Below are positions 5,977 to 64,000 of a stretch of 64,000 nt of DNA, in pieces. The position numbers were made by a program, and so were the translations under genes. The stretch lies in assembly GCA_016839765.1 (NCBI GenBank), contig JAEOTP010000087.1, positions 1 through 64,000 of the forward strand, in the 5' to 3' direction. This DNA comes from Promethearchaeota archaeon. GTDB lineage: Archaea; Asgardarchaeota; Lokiarchaeia; Sigyniarchaeales; SOKP01. Positions within the stretch are counted from its first letter, which is position 1; each line of letters begins with the position of its first letter. The notes beneath the pieces were generated by a model, which saw only the letters and a list, made by a program, of their open reading frames with translations, had not been told where the DNA came from and did not search any database.

Positions 5977-6570
5977 TTAAACACTATTTTCAATTGCTTT
6001 CAATGTAGAGGAAAACATTTGACTAATTTTTAATGGATTTATATTTACCTTATTTAAATAACCTGAAAATACTTTCTCATATTTTTCAGGATCTTCATTT
6101 TTTAAAATATTAGCATACTTTTCGATATGTTCACCCTTGATTCTTTCTTCCAAGTTCTCTGGAAAGAATTTTTCATTATATGGAACTTCTAAACCAGTAT
6201 CTATTATCCCTTTAGAAGCCGCAAGTAATCGATTATGATGAAGGAAGATTCCTAAATCAAGTATTGCTTTTGAAATATCTTTTTTCTTTGTTCTTAAACC
6301 TGCAAGATATCCTGTTAAATACGCAGCAGGTATATTTCCTGTACTTGCTTTCCAGCCAAATTTGTCTTTTAATTCTTTAGAAAATGCAGAAGATAAAACT
6401 TTATCGCCTCCAATTTTAGATTGAATAAGTTGAACAATTATATGATTATTTGATGCTCTTACTACTATTCTCAATTTTTTTGATTTAAGTAATTTTAATC
6501 TCCTATGATAATCTGTTTTTCCATCTTCTCTTCTTCTAAAAGCTCTTCTATATTTTGGTCCTTTAGTCAT
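5977..6570 (-). CDS. rpl18: Ribosomal protein L18 (uL18)
   Basis: A 197-residue 5S rRNA-binding protein of the archaeal/eukaryotic L5e-like length. Landmarks are GPKYRRAFRRREDGKTDYHRR at the N-terminus (read as overlapping pieces), LRIVVRASNNHIIVQLI, AAYLTGYLAGLRTKKK and LLAASKGIIDTGLEVPYN. These residues contact 5S rRNA in known structures. The gene starts three bases downstream of the end of L19e. Confidence 0.95.
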   Translation of the reverse strand: MTKGPKYRRAFRRREDGKTDYHRRLKLLKSKKLRIVVRASNNHIIVQLIQSKIGGDKVLSSAFSKELKDKFGWKASTGNIPAAYLTGYLAGLRTKKKDISKAILDLGIFLHHNRLLAASKGIIDTGLEVPYNEKFFPENLEERIKGEHIEKYANILKNEDPEKYEKVFSGYLNKVNINPLKISQMFSSTLKAIENSV

Positions 6571-6572
6571 TA

Positions 6573-7028
6573 TTACCTACCTCTTCTTAACAATTCTTTC
6601 TCTCTAATATACCGATTCATTTGAGTAACGCTGTTAAACATTCCACCTTTAGCATTTTTATATAACTTTCGATAGATAGCAGCTGTAATTAATTTTCGAT
6701 CTCTTAATTTTTTTAATTCTCTTCTTTGAGGGCGAATCCTCTTCATCCAGGCTTTTTTCTTTGGATTTCTGGCATATTTAGTCCCTTTTCTCTTTCCTAA
6801 ACCCCTAGCCCTTCCTTTTTTCTTCTTCTGATGATGTAAATTTTTCCTATATTTTGAAATTCCTTTTTTATATTTTTTTCTTATTATACCTTCTTTAATT
6901 AAACTCCTTACATCTTCTCTAGTTATAGCTAATTGAATCTCATCAATCAAATAAGGATCAAAATAGACCCGATTTTCGCCACATTTTAATATTTCTGCTG
7001 CCATTCTTTTTTGGGCTTTTAGACTCAT
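6573..7028 (-). CDS. rpl19e: Ribosomal protein L19e (eL19)
   Basis: A 151-residue protein found only in archaea and eukaryotes. It is very basic, with the family order LKAQKRMAAEILKCGENRV, then the HHQKKKKGRARGLGKRKGT tract, then the helix KAWMKRIRPQRRELKKLRD and a C-terminal YRKLYKNAKGGMF. The length equals the archaeal norm. Spacings of 21 and 2 bases to L32e and L18 place it inside the operon. Confidence 0.95.
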   Translation of the reverse strand: MSLKAQKRMAAEILKCGENRVYFDPYLIDEIQLAITREDVRSLIKEGIIRKKYKKGISKYRKNLHHQKKKKGRARGLGKRKGTKYARNPKKKAWMKRIRPQRRELKKLRDRKLITAAIYRKLYKNAKGGMFNSVTQMNRYIREKELLRRGR

Positions 7029-7049: not shown

Positions 7050-7529
7050 TTATTCCTCATCTAATGATTCTTCTAGATCTTCTAAATCAAGGTACTCCTC
7101 TTCTTCAAGAGATGTTTCTAACATTGATTCTAAACTTTCTAATTCTTTTTGGGATATTCCTAAATTAAGTACTTTAAATCCCCTATTTTGAGCATAATCA
7201 ACTAGTGTAATTCTTTTTTTGGCACCTACTCTTCCTGAAATTTTAATAGCATGTTTTTTATTACTTAATCCTTTAAAATCATTTAATGTAAAAATTCTTA
7301 CTTCTTCAAATCCTGATGGATGTAATCCCCTAATTTTTTTAGGGCTTCTATAACCTATCGTTGGAGATTTAACACCACTTTTTTTCTTTTTCCTTGTTTT
7401 TGAATCAATACCTCTAGCTTTTCTCCATGAATCTTTTACCCTTTTATATCTCCATGACTCTACTCGTCTGAATGAGGGTTTCTTTTTCTTTAATTTTTGT
7501 CTGAGTTGTAATAATTTTTTTGGTTGCAT
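7050..7529 (-). CDS. rpl32e: Ribosomal protein L32e (eL32)
   Basis: A 159-residue archaeal/eukaryotic large-subunit protein. Family landmarks are PSFRRVESWRYKRVKDSWRK, the PTIGYRSPKKIRGLHPSG motif and VGAKKRITLVDYAQNRGFKV. Oddly, the C-terminal ~30 residues form an acidic tail rich in Glu, Asp and Leu, absent from most archaeal eL32. The start codon is the only ATG and sits 15 bases after the L6 stop. Confidence 0.95.
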   Translation of the reverse strand: MQPKKLLQLRQKLKKKKPSFRRVESWRYKRVKDSWRKARGIDSKTRKKKKSGVKSPTIGYRSPKKIRGLHPSGFEEVRIFTLNDFKGLSNKKHAIKISGRVGAKKRITLVDYAQNRGFKVLNLGISQKELESLESMLETSLEEEEYLDLEDLEESLDEE

Positions 7530-7544
7530 TATTATTTCTCCATA

Positions 7545-8123
7545 TTATTTAATTTGCCAGAGAATTTCATCTCCAACTTGTTTTTTAAAAAGGTAGATAC
7601 CATCTTGAAATACTCGAGGATCTTTCTTTTTAATTCTACAGCATTTTTTAAGATTCGCAGCAGTTTGTCCTAATTTTTCTTTGTCAGGTCCAATTAGGAT
7701 AATATCTTCTCCCTCAACCTTTACTTCTACATTATCTAAAAACTTTGATATTCTAGGAGCTCTTTCTCCTAAAAAGTTGATGACATGTACTTCATTTTTA
7801 TTTGACTTCACTTCAGCAGTAAAAGGAAAGTGAGAATAAGCAATTTTGCAATAATACTTATAATTTTTTTGAACACCAATAATTAGGTTTTTAATTATGT
7901 TATATATTGTGTTGGTTAACGCAAGTGTACCGCTTTTAGGGAAATTACATGAAAATATAATAGTATTTCCTTCAATTGAAACTTTAACTCCTCTTATATG
8001 AGAAAAATCTTTTGTTATTTCTCCATTCGGTCCATTTACAGTTATATGGTGACCTCCACCTAAAGTGACCTTTACACCTTTGGGAATCTCCAATTCTTGC
8101 TTAAAAAATGCTGTTTTTACCAT
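7545..8123 (-). CDS. rpl6: Ribosomal protein L6 (uL6)
   Basis: A 192-residue protein with the two similar L6 domains. The first includes LEIPKGVKVTLGGGHHITVN and GPNGEITKDFSH; the second includes VEVKVEGEDIILIGPDKEKL and ends in RIKKKDPRVFQDGIYLFKK. The archaeal end motif DPRVFQDGIY is diagnostic. The gene lies 22 bases after S8 and 15 bases before L32e. Confidence 0.95.
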   Translation of the reverse strand: MVKTAFFKQELEIPKGVKVTLGGGHHITVNGPNGEITKDFSHIRGVKVSIEGNTIIFSCNFPKSGTLALTNTIYNIIKNLIIGVQKNYKYYCKIAYSHFPFTAEVKSNKNEVHVINFLGERAPRISKFLDNVEVKVEGEDIILIGPDKEKLGQTAANLKKCCRIKKKDPRVFQDGIYLFKKQVGDEILWQIK

Positions 8124-56903: not shown

Positions 56904-57275
56904 TTGTCTGAAAATATCAGTGAACTTACAGATCTGCTAAGAAAATTATCTGCTGTAAATTCGGATATAGAAGGGTCGGCTATTGTTAGTGTACAAGGAC
57001 TTCCGATTTGTTCTGTTTTAAGCCGTGATGTAAATGATGGTATTGTATCTGCTATGTCAGCAGCAATTCAGAGTGTATCAGAAAGAGCGGTTGAGGAATT
57101 AGATCGGGGAGGTTTAAAAAGGATTCTTATTGAGGGGGTAAGTGGAATTATAATTTTATCAAAAGCCGGTGAAAATGCTATATTGTGTACATTATGCCAT
57201 GCAAACGCAAGTTTAGGAATGGTTTTTCTCAATATTCAAAGTGTCGCAAATAGAATAGCAGCTTTATTGGATTAA
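56904..57275 (+). CDS. Roadblock/LC7 domain protein
   Basis: A 123-residue single-domain Roadblock protein. It reads LTDLLRKLSAVNSDIEGSAI, VSVQGLPICSVLSRDVNDG, then a long helix (AMSAAIQSVSERAVEELDRG) and strands GLKRILIEGVSGIIILS. This is closer to the MglB-like class than the first Roadblock gene. It starts with TTG and has a strong ribosome binding site. A 433-residue unknown gene follows 69 bases later, so they may act together. Its GTPase partner is not in the window. Confidence 0.88.
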   Translation: MSENISELTDLLRKLSAVNSDIEGSAIVSVQGLPICSVLSRDVNDGIVSAMSAAIQSVSERAVEELDRGGLKRILIEGVSGIIILSKAGENAILCTLCHANASLGMVFLNIQSVANRIAALLD

Positions 57276-57344
57276 TTTTAATGATATAAAAATTATATAA
57301 TTGATTTTAGAATTACTTATTCTTTAAGGATATCAAGAGAAAAT

Positions 57345-58646
57345 TTGGATGAATTCAATTTGAGTATGCAAAATGAATCAGAAAGGAGAAAGTTAGAAAA
57401 TAAATATCATGGATATTTATCTTACTTTTTAAAAAATAAAAAATTTGAAAAAATTAGAAAATTAATTGAGAAATCGATAGATTTAGATATTTTTATCAAT
57501 CCCCGTAAAATTCCCAATCGAATTGAAATAATTTCCAATTTATTAGTAGAATGTATTAGAAATCTTAATATAGGTGAAATTTTTAATATTTTGAGGTTTG
57601 TTAATAAATACAATTTAGTTGATAGAGATTTAACTGATTCAGAATTAAAAATTGTTGAGGAAATTAAAATTAATTCTTTATTCATTACTAATTTAATAGA
57701 TTTATTCGGAAATGTTTCTAATTCTTTTATATTTTACGTTAGAAAAGTAATGCCTTCCAATTTATATAGCTATTATAACAATTATTTTAGCGAATATTCT
57801 TTTTATTCTAATGATGGTTATGATATAAATTTAATCTTGAATTACTTAAACGAATATAGTGTTTATGGATTAACTATTAAGCTATTGGGCAATTTGGAGG
57901 ATTTTATTAGCTCATTTAATAATAACTATGTGAATAAAAATGAGAAATTTATCGAGTTTAAATTTGCAAACAAAAAACATTTAGTTTCACCGAAAAACAT
58001 CTTAAAAAACATGAAAAAAATTACTTCTCGCGAACAATATAAATTCTATAGCTTATCAATGGTTATTTTATATGGAATTGGTCCTCAAGGATTTGGATTC
58101 ACCTTTTCAACACCCAAAGGGGAGGTGATTGAAATCTGTTCTGATGTTAAAGAAAATGAAGCAATAATTATCAAATATAAAGAATTCTTAACAGAACGGT
58201 TTTTATTAAAACTAGAGCAAGAATTTATTGATCTTAATGTTGAGGGTTCAACTATAGATAAATTAAATATTTATCTCTTAGAATTAATTAAACCTAAGAA
58301 CTTAATTAACTATTATAAGAAGGACGAGATTTTAGGTAAAATTAAATATTTTTTTGATTCTAATATTTCGAATTCAATTAATAAAAAACAACATTTTCAA
58401 AAGTTAATAAATAAAATTTCAAAAAGAATTTCTAAAATTTTAAGGCCAATTGAAATGATTGACCAATTTAAAGTTAGAATGGATTTGTTAGCAGATGATA
58501 AGTTAAGATCTGAAGATATAGCAAAACTCACGAGTTTAAAAGAAAAATCCCATTATGATGTTCTTAGAGAGCGTGTTTTTCTTCAATATATTGTGGATTG
58601 GTTTTATAAAATATATTTGGAAAACGAAGCTGATATGAAAGATTAA
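57345..58646 (+). CDS. Unrecognised protein downstream of a Roadblock gene
   Basis: A 433-residue protein of no family I know. It is mostly helical by composition, rich in Asn, Ile, Lys and Leu, and without signal peptide or TM segments. Motifs to search with: EIFNILRFVNKYN, YGIGPQGFGFTFSTPKGEV and MDLLADDKLRSEDIAKLTSL. The listed frame starts with TTG; an ATG at 57366 is also possible. It is in a likely operon with the Roadblock gene. Confidence 0.6.
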   Translation: MDEFNLSMQNESERRKLENKYHGYLSYFLKNKKFEKIRKLIEKSIDLDIFINPRKIPNRIEIISNLLVECIRNLNIGEIFNILRFVNKYNLVDRDLTDSELKIVEEIKINSLFITNLIDLFGNVSNSFIFYVRKVMPSNLYSYYNNYFSEYSFYSNDGYDINLILNYLNEYSVYGLTIKLLGNLEDFISSFNNNYVNKNEKFIEFKFANKKHLVSPKNILKNMKKITSREQYKFYSLSMVILYGIGPQGFGFTFSTPKGEVIEICSDVKENEAIIIKYKEFLTERFLLKLEQEFIDLNVEGSTIDKLNIYLLELIKPKNLINYYKKDEILGKIKYFFDSNISNSINKKQHFQKLINKISKRISKILRPIEMIDQFKVRMDLLADDKLRSEDIAKLTSLKEKSHYDVLRERVFLQYIVDWFYKIYLENEADMKD

Positions 58647-59773: not shown

Positions 59774-61264
59774 TTACTTTCTAATTTCTTGAATATAATC
59801 AAAAATAGTATCAATTCTCCCCTTAATGGTTCCAAACAGTCCTTCTTCTTCCGAAACAACTGAATTAATAGCAGTTTTCAAGCCATAATGACTTTCAGAT
59901 ACTAAAACGCGTATAGGTAATGTAAGAATTTCATTGAAGAGCATTAGAATTTCTTGGATAACTCCAATTATCTTTGGAAATTTTTCTTCTGATTTTTCTA
60001 TCATCGATTGTTCAGAGGGAATTAGCTCATCTTCTTTTTCTCTCCTTAGTTCTTCCCAAACATTTTCTTTTAATTCTGAAAAATTGATGCCTAAATTCTC
60101 TAAAGCCAACTGAGCGCCTTCAAAAAGAAAAGTTACATCGTCCTTCCCTGAAAATTTCTTTACGTTCTCAACCATTTCTACTGGAGCAAGTCCATCAAGA
60201 AAAGTTATCAAAAGATGATGATAATCATTTATTACATCTATTGGAATGAATAATAAAGCAAAATCTCTTAATTGTTTAAAAAGATAGCCTGCAACTTTAG
60301 CAAACGTTTCATTTGCTAATATCTTTTCTACTAATCCTCCATATTCATTAAAAACGTGAATTGTTAAAAACCCAATTATCCTAATCATATCATCTTCATA
60401 ATTCTTAAAGTAATCAAAAAAATGTTCTGGTTCCATATTTAGTTTATCCTCAATAATCTCCGCTACCTTTCTCTTAATGCCCTCTAATGGTTCATCTAGT
60501 AATTCTTCAATTTTATCTAATGTAAGAGCCTCTTGTAATTTATCAATAATATCTAATTTCGTATCTTGAATAAGCTCTTCTTCCATTCTTTCTTCAAAAA
60601 ATACACCAGATTTTAGTTGATCTTGTATTCGAATTGCAGTAAATTCTTTCCATTCAGTAGTGTCATATATTTTACATATAAATTGAAGACACTGCCCTCC
60701 TTTTGTCTTACAATTTTGCTCTACAATGTTAATTCGATAGTCATTTTTCTTTATTCTAAGAATAAAATTAGCTACACTTTCTAACATTCCACATAAACCA
60801 CAAGCTAAACCTTCAGTTTCTTTATTTTTTAAATTTTGAAAATTAAATGTATCTTTTTCATCTAGTCCATAACTAGCGCAAATTGGACAGTTCTTAATCT
60901 TAACAATATAATCATTATATTTAGTACCCTCTTTAGGTATTTCTTCATAATTTAAGCCTCCTTCTTCTATCTCCTTCCCAAATACCACAATCCATAATAG
61001 CTCAAAATATTCAACTACTTTTTTAGGGCTACCTGGCATCCATTTAAATACACCCGAATGGCGCTCGCATGATTCTAAAGCTGCATTTTTCCCAATTTCT
61101 CTTAAAATAATTAGACTATCTTCCTCATTCTCAGTTATTTCATTAATCTCTTTAAGAATTTCACGATTAAGAAGTGTATAGAAAAGAGAATTAGTACTTC
61201 GACCGAAAGCTTTAGAAATCTTTTTTAATAGCCATTGTACAATACCCATGTTATTTTCCTCCAT
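59774..61264 (-). CDS. TRAPP/Bet3-like domain protein with long C-terminal helical region
   Basis: A 496-residue protein. The first ~200 residues read as a Bet3/V4R-type domain: SLFYTLLNREILKEINEI, LREIGKNAALESCERHSG, cysteine pairs at 126/129 and 155/158 (CPICASYGL; CGLCGMLESVANFILRI) and C185-x6-C192 in CKTKGGQC. These fit the TRAPP family that tethers vesicles in eukaryotes, known in Asgard. A helical, acidic region (200-496) of unknown fold follows. It overlaps the upstream gene by 14 bases. A bacterial V4R small-molecule sensor is the main alternative. Confidence 0.6.
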   Translation of the reverse strand: MEENNMGIVQWLLKKISKAFGRSTNSLFYTLLNREILKEINEITENEEDSLIILREIGKNAALESCERHSGVFKWMPGSPKKVVEYFELLWIVVFGKEIEEGGLNYEEIPKEGTKYNDYIVKIKNCPICASYGLDEKDTFNFQNLKNKETEGLACGLCGMLESVANFILRIKKNDYRINIVEQNCKTKGGQCLQFICKIYDTTEWKEFTAIRIQDQLKSGVFFEERMEEELIQDTKLDIIDKLQEALTLDKIEELLDEPLEGIKRKVAEIIEDKLNMEPEHFFDYFKNYEDDMIRIIGFLTIHVFNEYGGLVEKILANETFAKVAGYLFKQLRDFALLFIPIDVINDYHHLLITFLDGLAPVEMVENVKKFSGKDDVTFLFEGAQLALENLGINFSELKENVWEELRREKEDELIPSEQSMIEKSEEKFPKIIGVIQEILMLFNEILTLPIRVLVSESHYGLKTAINSVVSEEEGLFGTIKGRIDTIFDYIQEIRK

Positions 61265-61784
61265 CAGTATATTTAAATAATTGAATACATGATTTATTAC
61301 CGAAAGTACGTGATTCTTTAATTTCTATAGGATAAATCGAGAAGGAATGATCTTCCTCTGCCTGATTATTAATCAATGACACGAGTTCAGCAACCATAGC
61401 TGCTATGATTTCACATCCAGCAACGTGAATATCTTCAAAATGATATTTACATAGAGCACAATCATTATCTTTCACTGAAATAAGTTTCTCATAATCATTG
61501 ATTTCAATCGAAACTGAACTATTTAAAATGTTCTTATAAATAGTAGCAAGAACATTCTTTATATTAGTTATATCTACCTTATCAATCGGTTTCCAATATC
61601 TAATATACGTGTTTGCAATATTCTGACCTATTCTTTGAAATCTCTGCTTAATTTCAGAAATATTATTATTTTTTATAAAACGTTCAAGATGGTAAATCGC
61701 ATTTCGCATTTGATTCATGGTAGCCTCTGATTCGACTAAATCTTTTCTTGAATAACTCATCATAAATCTACTCTGAAAATTCAA
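61251..61784 (-). CDS. Second TRAPP/Bet3-like small protein
   Basis: A 177-residue protein, the usual length of single-domain Bet3/TRAPPC subunits. It shows an N-terminal helix (MRNAIYHLERFIKNNNISEI), IGQNIANTYIRYWKPI, a mid helix (VLATIYKNILNSSV), C109-x2-C112 (CALCKYHF), a Cys-containing helix (GCEIIAAMVAELVSLI) and a late NKSCIQLFKY strand. It parallels the domain of its neighbour in order. The 14-base overlap with the larger TRAPP-like gene shows co-expression. Alternative ATGs lie at codons 8-9. Confidence 0.6.
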   Translation of the reverse strand: MNFQSRFMMSYSRKDLVESEATMNQMRNAIYHLERFIKNNNISEIKQRFQRIGQNIANTYIRYWKPIDKVDITNIKNVLATIYKNILNSSVSIEINDYEKLISVKDNDCALCKYHFEDIHVAGCEIIAAMVAELVSLINNQAEEDHSFSIYPIEIKESRTFGNKSCIQLFKYTDGGK

Positions 61785-62055: not shown

Positions 62056-62412
62056 ATGACTAATATCGAAGAATTAAAAAATTATGGGCTCGATATTACT
62101 GAGGATATGAAGCAAGGAGTCTTAATATGTGATATATATACGGTTTGGTGTGGGCCTTGCAAGTTTTTAAGCCCAATCTTAGAAAAGCTCAAGGAAGAGG
62201 GGCTTATAAAATTACTAGCCGTAGATTTAGACCAAAATAGACCTTTAGGTGAAAAATTTGGTGTGACAGCTATCCCAACGCTTCTGTTTTTTAAAGATGG
62301 CGAAATGGTTGATGGTACTATTGAGATTCAAGGTCAACCCTTAGTAAGAGATGGAATAATGATAGGAGCTGCTGGAGAGAATGTTTTAAAAAGTATTATA
62401 GCGAAGATTTAA
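62056..62412 (+). CDS. Thioredoxin
   Basis: A 118-residue thioredoxin-fold protein. The redox site is VWCGPCKFLSPIL (C32, C35) and the cis-proline is in TAIPTLLFF. It has no signal peptide, so it is cytosolic. It reduces protein disulphides, with NADPH- or ferredoxin-dependent reductases encoded elsewhere. It is a single gene with T-runs after it. Confidence 0.9.
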   Translation: MTNIEELKNYGLDITEDMKQGVLICDIYTVWCGPCKFLSPILEKLKEEGLIKLLAVDLDQNRPLGEKFGVTAIPTLLFFKDGEMVDGTIEIQGQPLVRDGIMIGAAGENVLKSIIAKI

Positions 62413-62448
62413 TTTTTCATAAAAATATATTTAAAAAATTGATTTACT

Positions 62449-62457
62449 CTTTTTTTT
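62449..62457 (+). terminator. T-run after thioredoxin gene
   Basis: A run of thymines about 40 bases after the thioredoxin stop, likely a U-tract terminator. Confidence 0.35.
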
Positions 62458-62605
62458 AAACTAGCTTTTATAAACCTATTGATTTCATTTAAAATGTTTG
62501 AAATATCTTTTTTAAAATGATTTTAATTGAAAAATAAAAGAATTAATTTTAAAATAGAATGAGAGTTATTAATATATAAGTTTAAGTAAATCTCATATAA
62601 TTAAA

Positions 62606-63109
62606 ATGGCAACTATAGATTTTGATTTTAGAAACCAGATCATCCAATCCGATATTGGGAGTACACTTGCTTATTGCTATCAGTGTGCTACTTGCAGTGG
62701 GGCATGCCCAGTAGCACAAGTCACTAATGGACGCTATAATCCAAGAAGATTGATTTTAGATGCTCTCCTTGGGTTAAAAGAAAAGATTTTTGGTAAGGAA
62801 AACGCATTTAATATCTGGGGATGCACTGTTTGTGATACCTGTGATGAAGTTTGCCCTCAAAAGGTTGAACTTACTGAAATTTTTACTATTCTAAAAAATA
62901 TGAGCGTTGCTCGGGGAGAAGCTCCTGATTATTATACTACTCAAGCATCAACAATTTTAGAAAATGGAAAAGCAATCCCGATGCAACCAGCGATAGAAAG
63001 AAGGAGGGATCAACTTGGATTACCAAAAGTTTTAACTCCTGATGTTAATGAAGTACAAAAACTTTTAGAAACAACAAAATTAACTGAAAAACTTAAGAAA
63101 GAAGAATAA
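62606..63109 (+). CDS. hdrC: CoB-CoM heterodisulfide reductase subunit C-like (HdrC)
   Basis: A 167-residue iron-sulphur protein. Two C-x2-C-x2-C-x3-C motifs are present, YQCATCSGACPVAQV (C24, C27, C30, C34) and CTVCDTCDEVCPQ (C73, C76, C79, C83), each for a [4Fe-4S] cluster. HdrC passes electrons between HdrA and HdrB. No hdrA or hdrB is near, so it may work with a dispersed complex. It is followed 132 bases later by tpiA on the same strand. Confidence 0.85.
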   Translation: MATIDFDFRNQIIQSDIGSTLAYCYQCATCSGACPVAQVTNGRYNPRRLILDALLGLKEKIFGKENAFNIWGCTVCDTCDEVCPQKVELTEIFTILKNMSVARGEAPDYYTTQASTILENGKAIPMQPAIERRRDQLGLPKVLTPDVNEVQKLLETTKLTEKLKKEE

Positions 63110-63241
63110 TTTTTCTTTTGATACTCTTTTTAAAAATAATTTTATTTTTTAGAATCTTTAACAATATAATCGTTCTTAGAATTGAAATTAGATTGAAAAT
63201 AGATTTATTTAAAATTAATAATCATTAAAGAAGTGAATTTG

Positions 63242-64000
63242 ATGAGAAAGCCAGTTATTGGTGCAAATTGGAAAATGAATCGAGGAACGCCTAAGGAAGC
63301 ATTAGAAATGATTCAAGATTTTAAATCTAATATAAAAAAGACAACCTCAGTTGATATTATTATCTTTCCGCCATACACAGTTTTAAATACAATTTTTAAT
63401 ACTGTTAAAAAGACTCAAATAAAGGTTGGAGCTCAAAATATGTATTTTGAAGAAAAAGGAGCTTTTACAGGAGAAATTTCTCCCATATTCCTTAAAAATA
63501 TTGGTTGCGAATATGTAATATTGGGACACAGTGAAAGAAGAGATATTTTTCAAGAGACTGATGAAATAATAAATAAAAAGTTGAAAAAAGCTTTATTTAT
63601 AAGTTTAAATCCTATAGTATGTATAGGAGAACACCTTGAAAAAAGAGAAGCTGGTAAAACGAAAGAAATTATTCTTAATCAATTCATGAATACTTTCAAG
63701 GACCTTACTAAAGAAGAAATTAGAAAAACTATAATTGCTTATGAACCAATTTGGGCAATAGGAACAGGTAAAACTGCTACACCAGAGCAAGCTGAAGAGA
63801 TACATCACTATATTCGTGAATTATTAGAAAACAATTATGATAGAGATACAGCTCAAAGCGTAAGAATTCAATATGGCGGTTCAATAAAACCAAATAATGC
63901 TGAAGATTTATTTAGGAAAGAGAATATTGATGGAGGTTTAGTAGGAGGCGCATCTCTACAAGCAGAATCCCTATTTGAAATAGTAAAAGCTGCGCAAGCA
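63242..64000 (+). CDS. tpiA: Triosephosphate isomerase (3' truncated), bacterial/eukaryotic type
   Basis: Interconverts dihydroxyacetone phosphate and glyceraldehyde 3-phosphate. 253 codons are visible to the window end with no stop. The N-terminus has GANWKMN (catalytic Asn and Lys), then ILGHSERRD (catalytic His), AYEPIWAIGTGKTATPEQAE (catalytic Glu and loop 6) and IQYGGSIKP with GLVGGASLQ. The length and the WAIGTGK loop are those of bacterial/eukaryotic TpiA (~250 residues), not the short ~220-residue archaeal form. Only a few C-terminal residues can be missing. The start has AAGAAGTG upstream. Confidence 0.93.
   Translation, partial: MRKPVIGANWKMNRGTPKEALEMIQDFKSNIKKTTSVDIIIFPPYTVLNTIFNTVKKTQIKVGAQNMYFEEKGAFTGEISPIFLKNIGCEYVILGHSERRDIFQETDEIINKKLKKALFISLNPIVCIGEHLEKREAGKTKEIILNQFMNTFKDLTKEEIRKTIIAYEPIWAIGTGKTATPEQAEEIHHYIRELLENNYDRDTAQSVRIQYGGSIKPNNAEDLFRKENIDGGLVGGASLQAESLFEIVKAAQA

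Follow-up and report, generated by a model that had tools for sequence, protein, structure and literature searches.

TRAPPC3 (Bet3) is a core part of the eukaryotic vesicle-sorting machinery, and its palmitoylated cysteine sits in the N-terminal half of the protein. In eukaryotic TRAPPC3/C6 and TRAPPC3/C5 two unlike Bet3-fold subunits are combined. PMC10933270 was the only report found in the open-access literature that joins Lokiarchaeota and V4R, and in its available text Asgard TRAPPC3 proteins are treated as homodimers. The Thorarchaeal TRAPPC3 described there (7YH2, 7YH3) was solved as a homodimer that dimerises by its N-terminal helices. The same text gives two proteins of the Lokiarchaeon MK-D1, the TRAPPC3-like WP_147663132.1 and the PoxR-like WP_147661794.1, predicted TRAPPC3 and V4R folds. 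Both were modelled as homodimers, and the available text reports neither a gene pair nor a helical extension for them. According to it, the small-GTPase genes of MK-D1 do not generally share operons with genes for roadblock, longin or TRAPPC3 proteins. Hydrophobic cavities are present in TRAPPC3 (palmitate), PoxR (phenol) and Thor TRAPPC3 (PMC10933270 and PMC2253512).

The locus examined here lies on the minus strand of the window, by which is meant the whole stretch of 64,000 nucleotides of Lokiarchaeal DNA that was analysed; a 98%-identical locus (L062) is found in 'Candidatus Lokiarchaeota archaeon'. The first-pass annotation described two adjacent genes overlapping by 14 bases and encoding two Bet3-like proteins. 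Both open reading frames were found at their expected places, the short gene being 5' of the long gene. The short gene (61251..61763, minus strand) encodes ~170 aa and its start, corrected from the homologues, is probably ATG 61763 or 61760 and not TTG 61784. The long gene (59774..61249, minus strand) encodes 491 aa from its conserved start, or 496 aa from ATG 61264. Nearly all homologues of the long gene begin at a conserved 'MG' corresponding to residue 6 (61249), so an overlap of 14 bases would require an unlikely start. From 61249 the stop-to-start gap is 1 base, and a GGAGG ribosome-binding-like motif (61258..61262, minus strand) is embedded in the short gene's 3' end, 8 bases ahead of the conserved ATG; GGAGG-like motifs also precede the long gene in several homologues. 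The spacing in homologues of the same family is mostly −1 to +7 bases, with 0–2 in many and up to 24 at most, while in a related family (L119) the two genes overlap as ATGA.

The short protein is TRAPPC3-type. Searches of the Pfam, NCBIfam and PDB collections with single sequences of the short and long proteins gave chance-level matches only; a short N-terminal Bet3 fragment served solely as positive control for the PDB search. A SecA_SW match of the short protein (E 4e-4) was below cut-off and most likely reflects helical composition. The Pfam TRAPP model PF04051 (27-bit cut-off) did not match the window proteins and gave zero matches above the cut-off across the Lokiarchaeal-class genomes; Thor proteins lie above this cut-off. 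When a profile built from 26 short homologues was compared with all of the PDB at E up to 10, the only matches were the Thorarchaeal TRAPPC3 entries 7YH2 (1.3e-6) and 7YH3 (3.8e-6). Against 31 Thor TRAPPC3b sequences the short profile reached 97.2% in profile-profile comparison (P 3.8e-11), the best of 40 column shuffles reaching 0.9%. A template-free AF2 model of moderate confidence from a 3-row alignment (pLDDT 63, pTM 0.59) has the order H-H-H-E-E-H-E-E, which is the V4R/TRAPP fold order of helices 1–3, two strands, helix 4 and two strands. In Foldseek the model retrieved TRAPP subunits at ranks 1–6 and Thor TRAPPC3 at rank 8, the matches comprising Naegleria TRAPPC3, the Drosophila TRAPP core, Thor TRAPPC3, mouse Bet3, human TPC6 and yeast TRAPP, with H-NOX and BcsD as related folds in the list. 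The first-pass annotation had envisaged that both genes might find V4R sensors and no TRAPP protein, and for the short gene this is not what was seen.

Four cysteines of the short protein are 95–100% conserved in 40 sequences: the C102/C105 CxxC (61449..61460, minus strand; 97–100%), C117 (61413..61415, minus strand; 95%) and C159 (61287..61289, minus strand; 100%). Their arrangement corresponds to that of the zinc ligands in the Thor proteins, the CxxC spacing being that of C100/C103 of Thor TRAPPC3, and they are predicted to form a zinc site as in that protein. The short subunit thus resembles Thor TRAPPC3 in sequence family, CxxC...C...C spacing and fold order. It contains no cysteine beyond the predicted zinc four and hence lacks the palmitoylation site of Bet3. 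Eukaryotic TRAPP differs from the Loki pair in that mouse TRAPPC3 has no zinc site, the palmitoylated cysteine is present and the subunit works within a longin-based Rab GEF.

The N-domain of the long protein (60650..61249, minus strand) carries a CxxC...C...ExxC signature and, judged from profiles, is a V4R-type member of the V4R/TRAPP superfamily. With hhalign it matched V4R at 96.1% (P 3.3e-9) and Thor TRAPPC3a at 93.9% (P 1.5e-7), shuffles reaching no more than 2.9%. Taking both proteins against the superfamily, profile-profile scores were 34–72 compared with at most ~22 for 40 column-shuffled controls each. Thor TRAPPC3 was also ranked top when the N-domain profile was compared with the PDB, but the match was weak and non-significant (0.011). 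AF2 modelling of the long protein, again from a 3-row alignment, reached a pLDDT of no more than 42. The N-domain thus has the signature and a profile match in common with the V4R domain proper (PF02830; PoxR, BchJ-type). However, the long homologues fall below the Pfam cut-off of 31 bits (only 2/25 match at all, best E 0.046), and the protein is partnered by a TRAPPC3-type protein and bears a helical C-domain. Its predicted zinc ligands are less conserved than those of the short protein and are gone in L117–L119. Cysteine pairs are present in each protein, as had been claimed. Direct profile similarity between short and long is modest (48%), and the link between them runs via paralogous pairs.

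Of the 65 genomes in the window's family, 57 carry the long gene; the short gene is present in exactly these genomes and adjoins the long one in 57/57. The same arrangement occurs in 17 further genomes from the rest of the Lokiarchaeal class. Hence in 74/74 genomes of the class having either gene the two lie side by side in the same order. Paralogous pairs in outgroups keep this order (L126, L127, L146–L149, L153–L155), some of their genes being below the profile threshold. Scans of viral contigs gave zero matches. A tree was built from 117 domains comprising the short and long proteins, the paralogous pairs, Thor TRAPPC3, Thor V4R, the pair from the Asgard family f26 and generic V4R; the family labelled Thor (f28) is so called because its proteins belong with 7YH2/7YH3. 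Short and paralogous short proteins formed a clade with support 100, and long and paralogous long proteins one with support 99. Since each groups with its own paralogues, the short and long types already existed when the pair was duplicated. A split with UFBoot 99 separates the short proteins, Thor TRAPPC3 and the f26 pair from the long proteins, Thor V4R and generic V4R; the f26 partner thus groups with the TRAPP proteins, and Thor V4R with generic V4R. The original description of two Bet3-like proteins is thus borne out for superfamily membership of both, with Bet3-type being correct for the short protein and V4R-type for the long one.

In Thor a V4R gene directly follows TRAPPC3b in 28/29 loci; it has no helical C-domain, unlike the Loki long gene. 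The Loki and Thor couples may be one inherited unit or two separate assemblies. The MK-D1 proteins WP_147663132.1 and WP_147661794.1 are possibly orthologues of the pair.

The stretch 56904–58646 of the window contains a family-less 433-aa ORF and a roadblock gene (PF03259, E 3.5e-15), the latter being found no more than 5 kb from the pair in 15/20 family loci. Thioredoxin, 4Fe-4S (HdrC-like) and triosephosphate isomerase genes at 62056–64000 are syntenic with the pair across the family. In Thor a gene termed F11, whose product has an N-domain resembling roadblock (70%, P 4e-5) and ends in a winged helix (wHTH), precedes TRAPPC3b in 26/29 loci and TRAPPC3a in 10/10. In f26 two overlapping TRAPP-side genes are followed in one operon by a longin-like/wHTH gene, F21, whose longin identity rests on weak Pfam matches (0.025–0.05) and which was seen in an operon with such genes in f26 only. 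The f26 operons (L135:5820-7545, L136:52-1775, L141:5219-6975 and L222:7935-9664) are the nearest thing to a TRAPP-core operon seen. F21-like genes occur in most Asgard genomes and lie ~10 kb or less from the pair in G147, G148, G150 and G151, with none near the pair in the window's family. The neighbours of TRAPP/V4R genes in Thor, f26 and some Loki outgroups share a common C-terminal wHTH (profile-profile 97%; HTH_47 16/16). This domain was considered as a link to the window and rejected, no such gene being near the pair there. Elsewhere in the same genome, an operon of a Ras-like GTPase, a thioredoxin-like protein and a 159-aa V4R protein (L151:4858-6265, G000:C67; also L223–L252) is kept in 30/30 family loci, and this conservation suggests that V4R-GTPase coupling may exist in Lokiarchaea away from the pair. 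Another V4R gene (6112–6705) lies between Arf-like and Ras-like GTPase genes at L150:4982-7395 (G000:C72).

The reading favoured, with moderate confidence, is that the pair represents two unlike subunits, TRAPPC3-type short and V4R-type long, of one V4R/TRAPP-superfamily complex. It is probably an obligate, probably heterodimeric, two-subunit TRAPP/V4R module that most likely binds a hydrophobic ligand. That the genes are kept together across the whole class suggests that they make one two-part protein, and strict 1:1 adjacency in constant order is the pattern of obligate partners. The hetero-oligomer put forward as a possibility in the first-pass annotation is therefore supported as probable by the 74-genome adjacency and the joint duplication. 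A ligand-binding complex of two subunits is suggested by the hydrophobic cavities of TRAPPC3, PoxR and Thor TRAPPC3 and by the N-terminal-helix dimerisation of Thor TRAPPC3. By analogy with TRAPPC3/C6 and the Thor TRAPPC3 homodimer, short and long would pair via their N-terminal helices; zinc would brace the beta-sheet against the last helix; each subunit would keep a pocket for a lipid, acyl or similar hydrophobic ligand; and the helical C-domain of the long subunit may be a scaffold coupling ligand or assembly state to another protein.

A point against a heterodimer is the crystallisation of Thor TRAPPC3 as a homodimer (PMC10933270, available text). If PoxR, also a homodimer according to that text, and the opposite positions of the subunits across the 99-support split are taken together with this, the co-transcribed relatives might each self-associate and bind different ligands. 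Since the genes keep strict 1:1 adjacency and a constant order, in the duplicated copies as in the 74 genomes, two separate homodimers seem rather unlikely. The first-pass annotation had suggested that the pair could form a proto-TRAPP; on this reading it would belong to a tether or GEF that activates a Rab-like GTPase, and the helical extension would be an effector-binding arm. The short subunit is truly TRAPP-homologous, the f26 operon does join two TRAPP-side genes to a longin-like/wHTH gene and each Thor TRAPPC3 gene does follow a gene with a roadblock-like N-domain. However, small GTPase genes were found within 5 kb of the pair in 0/34 loci, there is no longin gene in the window and the short protein has no palmitoylated Bet3-type cysteine. 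Furthermore, the available text of PMC10933270 centres the Rab contacts of eukaryotic TRAPP on a longin heterodimer and reports no membrane targeting of its Asgard proteins in HeLa cells. The GEF or tether role is thus unsupported and looks improbable, and a role in GTPase exchange is unneeded for any observation made here. V4R proteins elsewhere are sensor domains (PMC2253512), and the wHTH-ending neighbours described above for Thor, f26 and some Loki outgroups could indicate a ligand-sensing transcription regulator in which the pair acts via winged-helix proteins that are its gene neighbours in other Asgards. In the window's family, though, the pair has no adjoining wHTH gene, and the closest wHTH homologue of this genome is on another contig (G000:C25), making a regulator improbable.

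In the long protein an acidic variable linker (60560..60649, minus strand), delimited by alignment, leads into a C-domain of ~260 aa (59777..60559, minus strand) with zero Pfam or NCBIfam family matches. It is predicted to be all-helical from a low-confidence AF2 model and occurs only in the Lokiarchaeal class. Thus the absence of a known family for this extension was confirmed, with its length corrected from ~300 to about 260–290 residues. Eukaryotic C5 likewise has an extra C-terminal helix (PMC10152722), to which the long subunit may be likened. In the PDB the C-domain profile had BART/ARL2BP repeatedly at or near the top of its matches (E 0.016 where it ranked first). Such an identity is not supported, since the matches were never significant and the Pfam BART model (PF11527) picked other loci and not those of the C-domain. 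A gene of 123–128 aa following the pair in G147 and G148 was ruled out as a split C-domain (1%).

The C-domain invariably forms one protein with the V4R domain in the window's order. Three genomes of sister orders (G145, G146, G147) have it joined to a HAD hydrolase instead, and in G146 a gene for such a fusion directly precedes a short-long pair. The C-domain is therefore taken to be a mobile helical module and not a part of TRAPP, and a TRAPP-specific partner-binding arm, as first suggested, is unlikely. The HAD-C-domain gene clusters of the sister orders (L218:465-9128, L219:2187-9484, L220:1770-10493) contain an 870-aa PF01553 acyltransferase, an HGD-D/DUF2229 protein, a BadF ATPase and, in some only, a lactate-racemase-like protein; the acyltransferase is bacterial-type, which is unexpected in an archaeon. 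Partial copies of the long-gene C-terminus were seen at G039:C50:2387-2581 and 7381-7575, G023:C85:95958-96290 and G026:C35:286326-286469, those in G023 and G026 being a few kb downstream of an intact long gene. They are probably duplication remnants.

Within the open-access literature covered, the pairing of the two genes, their joint duplication and the helical domain shared with HAD hydrolases appear to be new. The short-long pair bears on the origins of TRAPP, as the Asgard relatives have so far been described as single proteins forming homodimers. A broader proposal, doubtful at present, is that Asgard archaea had an asymmetric operon-encoded TRAPP-like core (TRAPPC3-type, a second TRAPP/V4R-type and longin/roadblock) and that eukaryotic TRAPP inherited its plan of two unlike subunits from it, this plan not being an invention made after eukaryogenesis. 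If the class-wide pair is truly heteromeric then, together with the Thor TRAPPC3-V4R couple, it would mean that differentiation of TRAPP-fold subunits predates eukaryotes, and named gene pairs are now at hand for a direct test of this.
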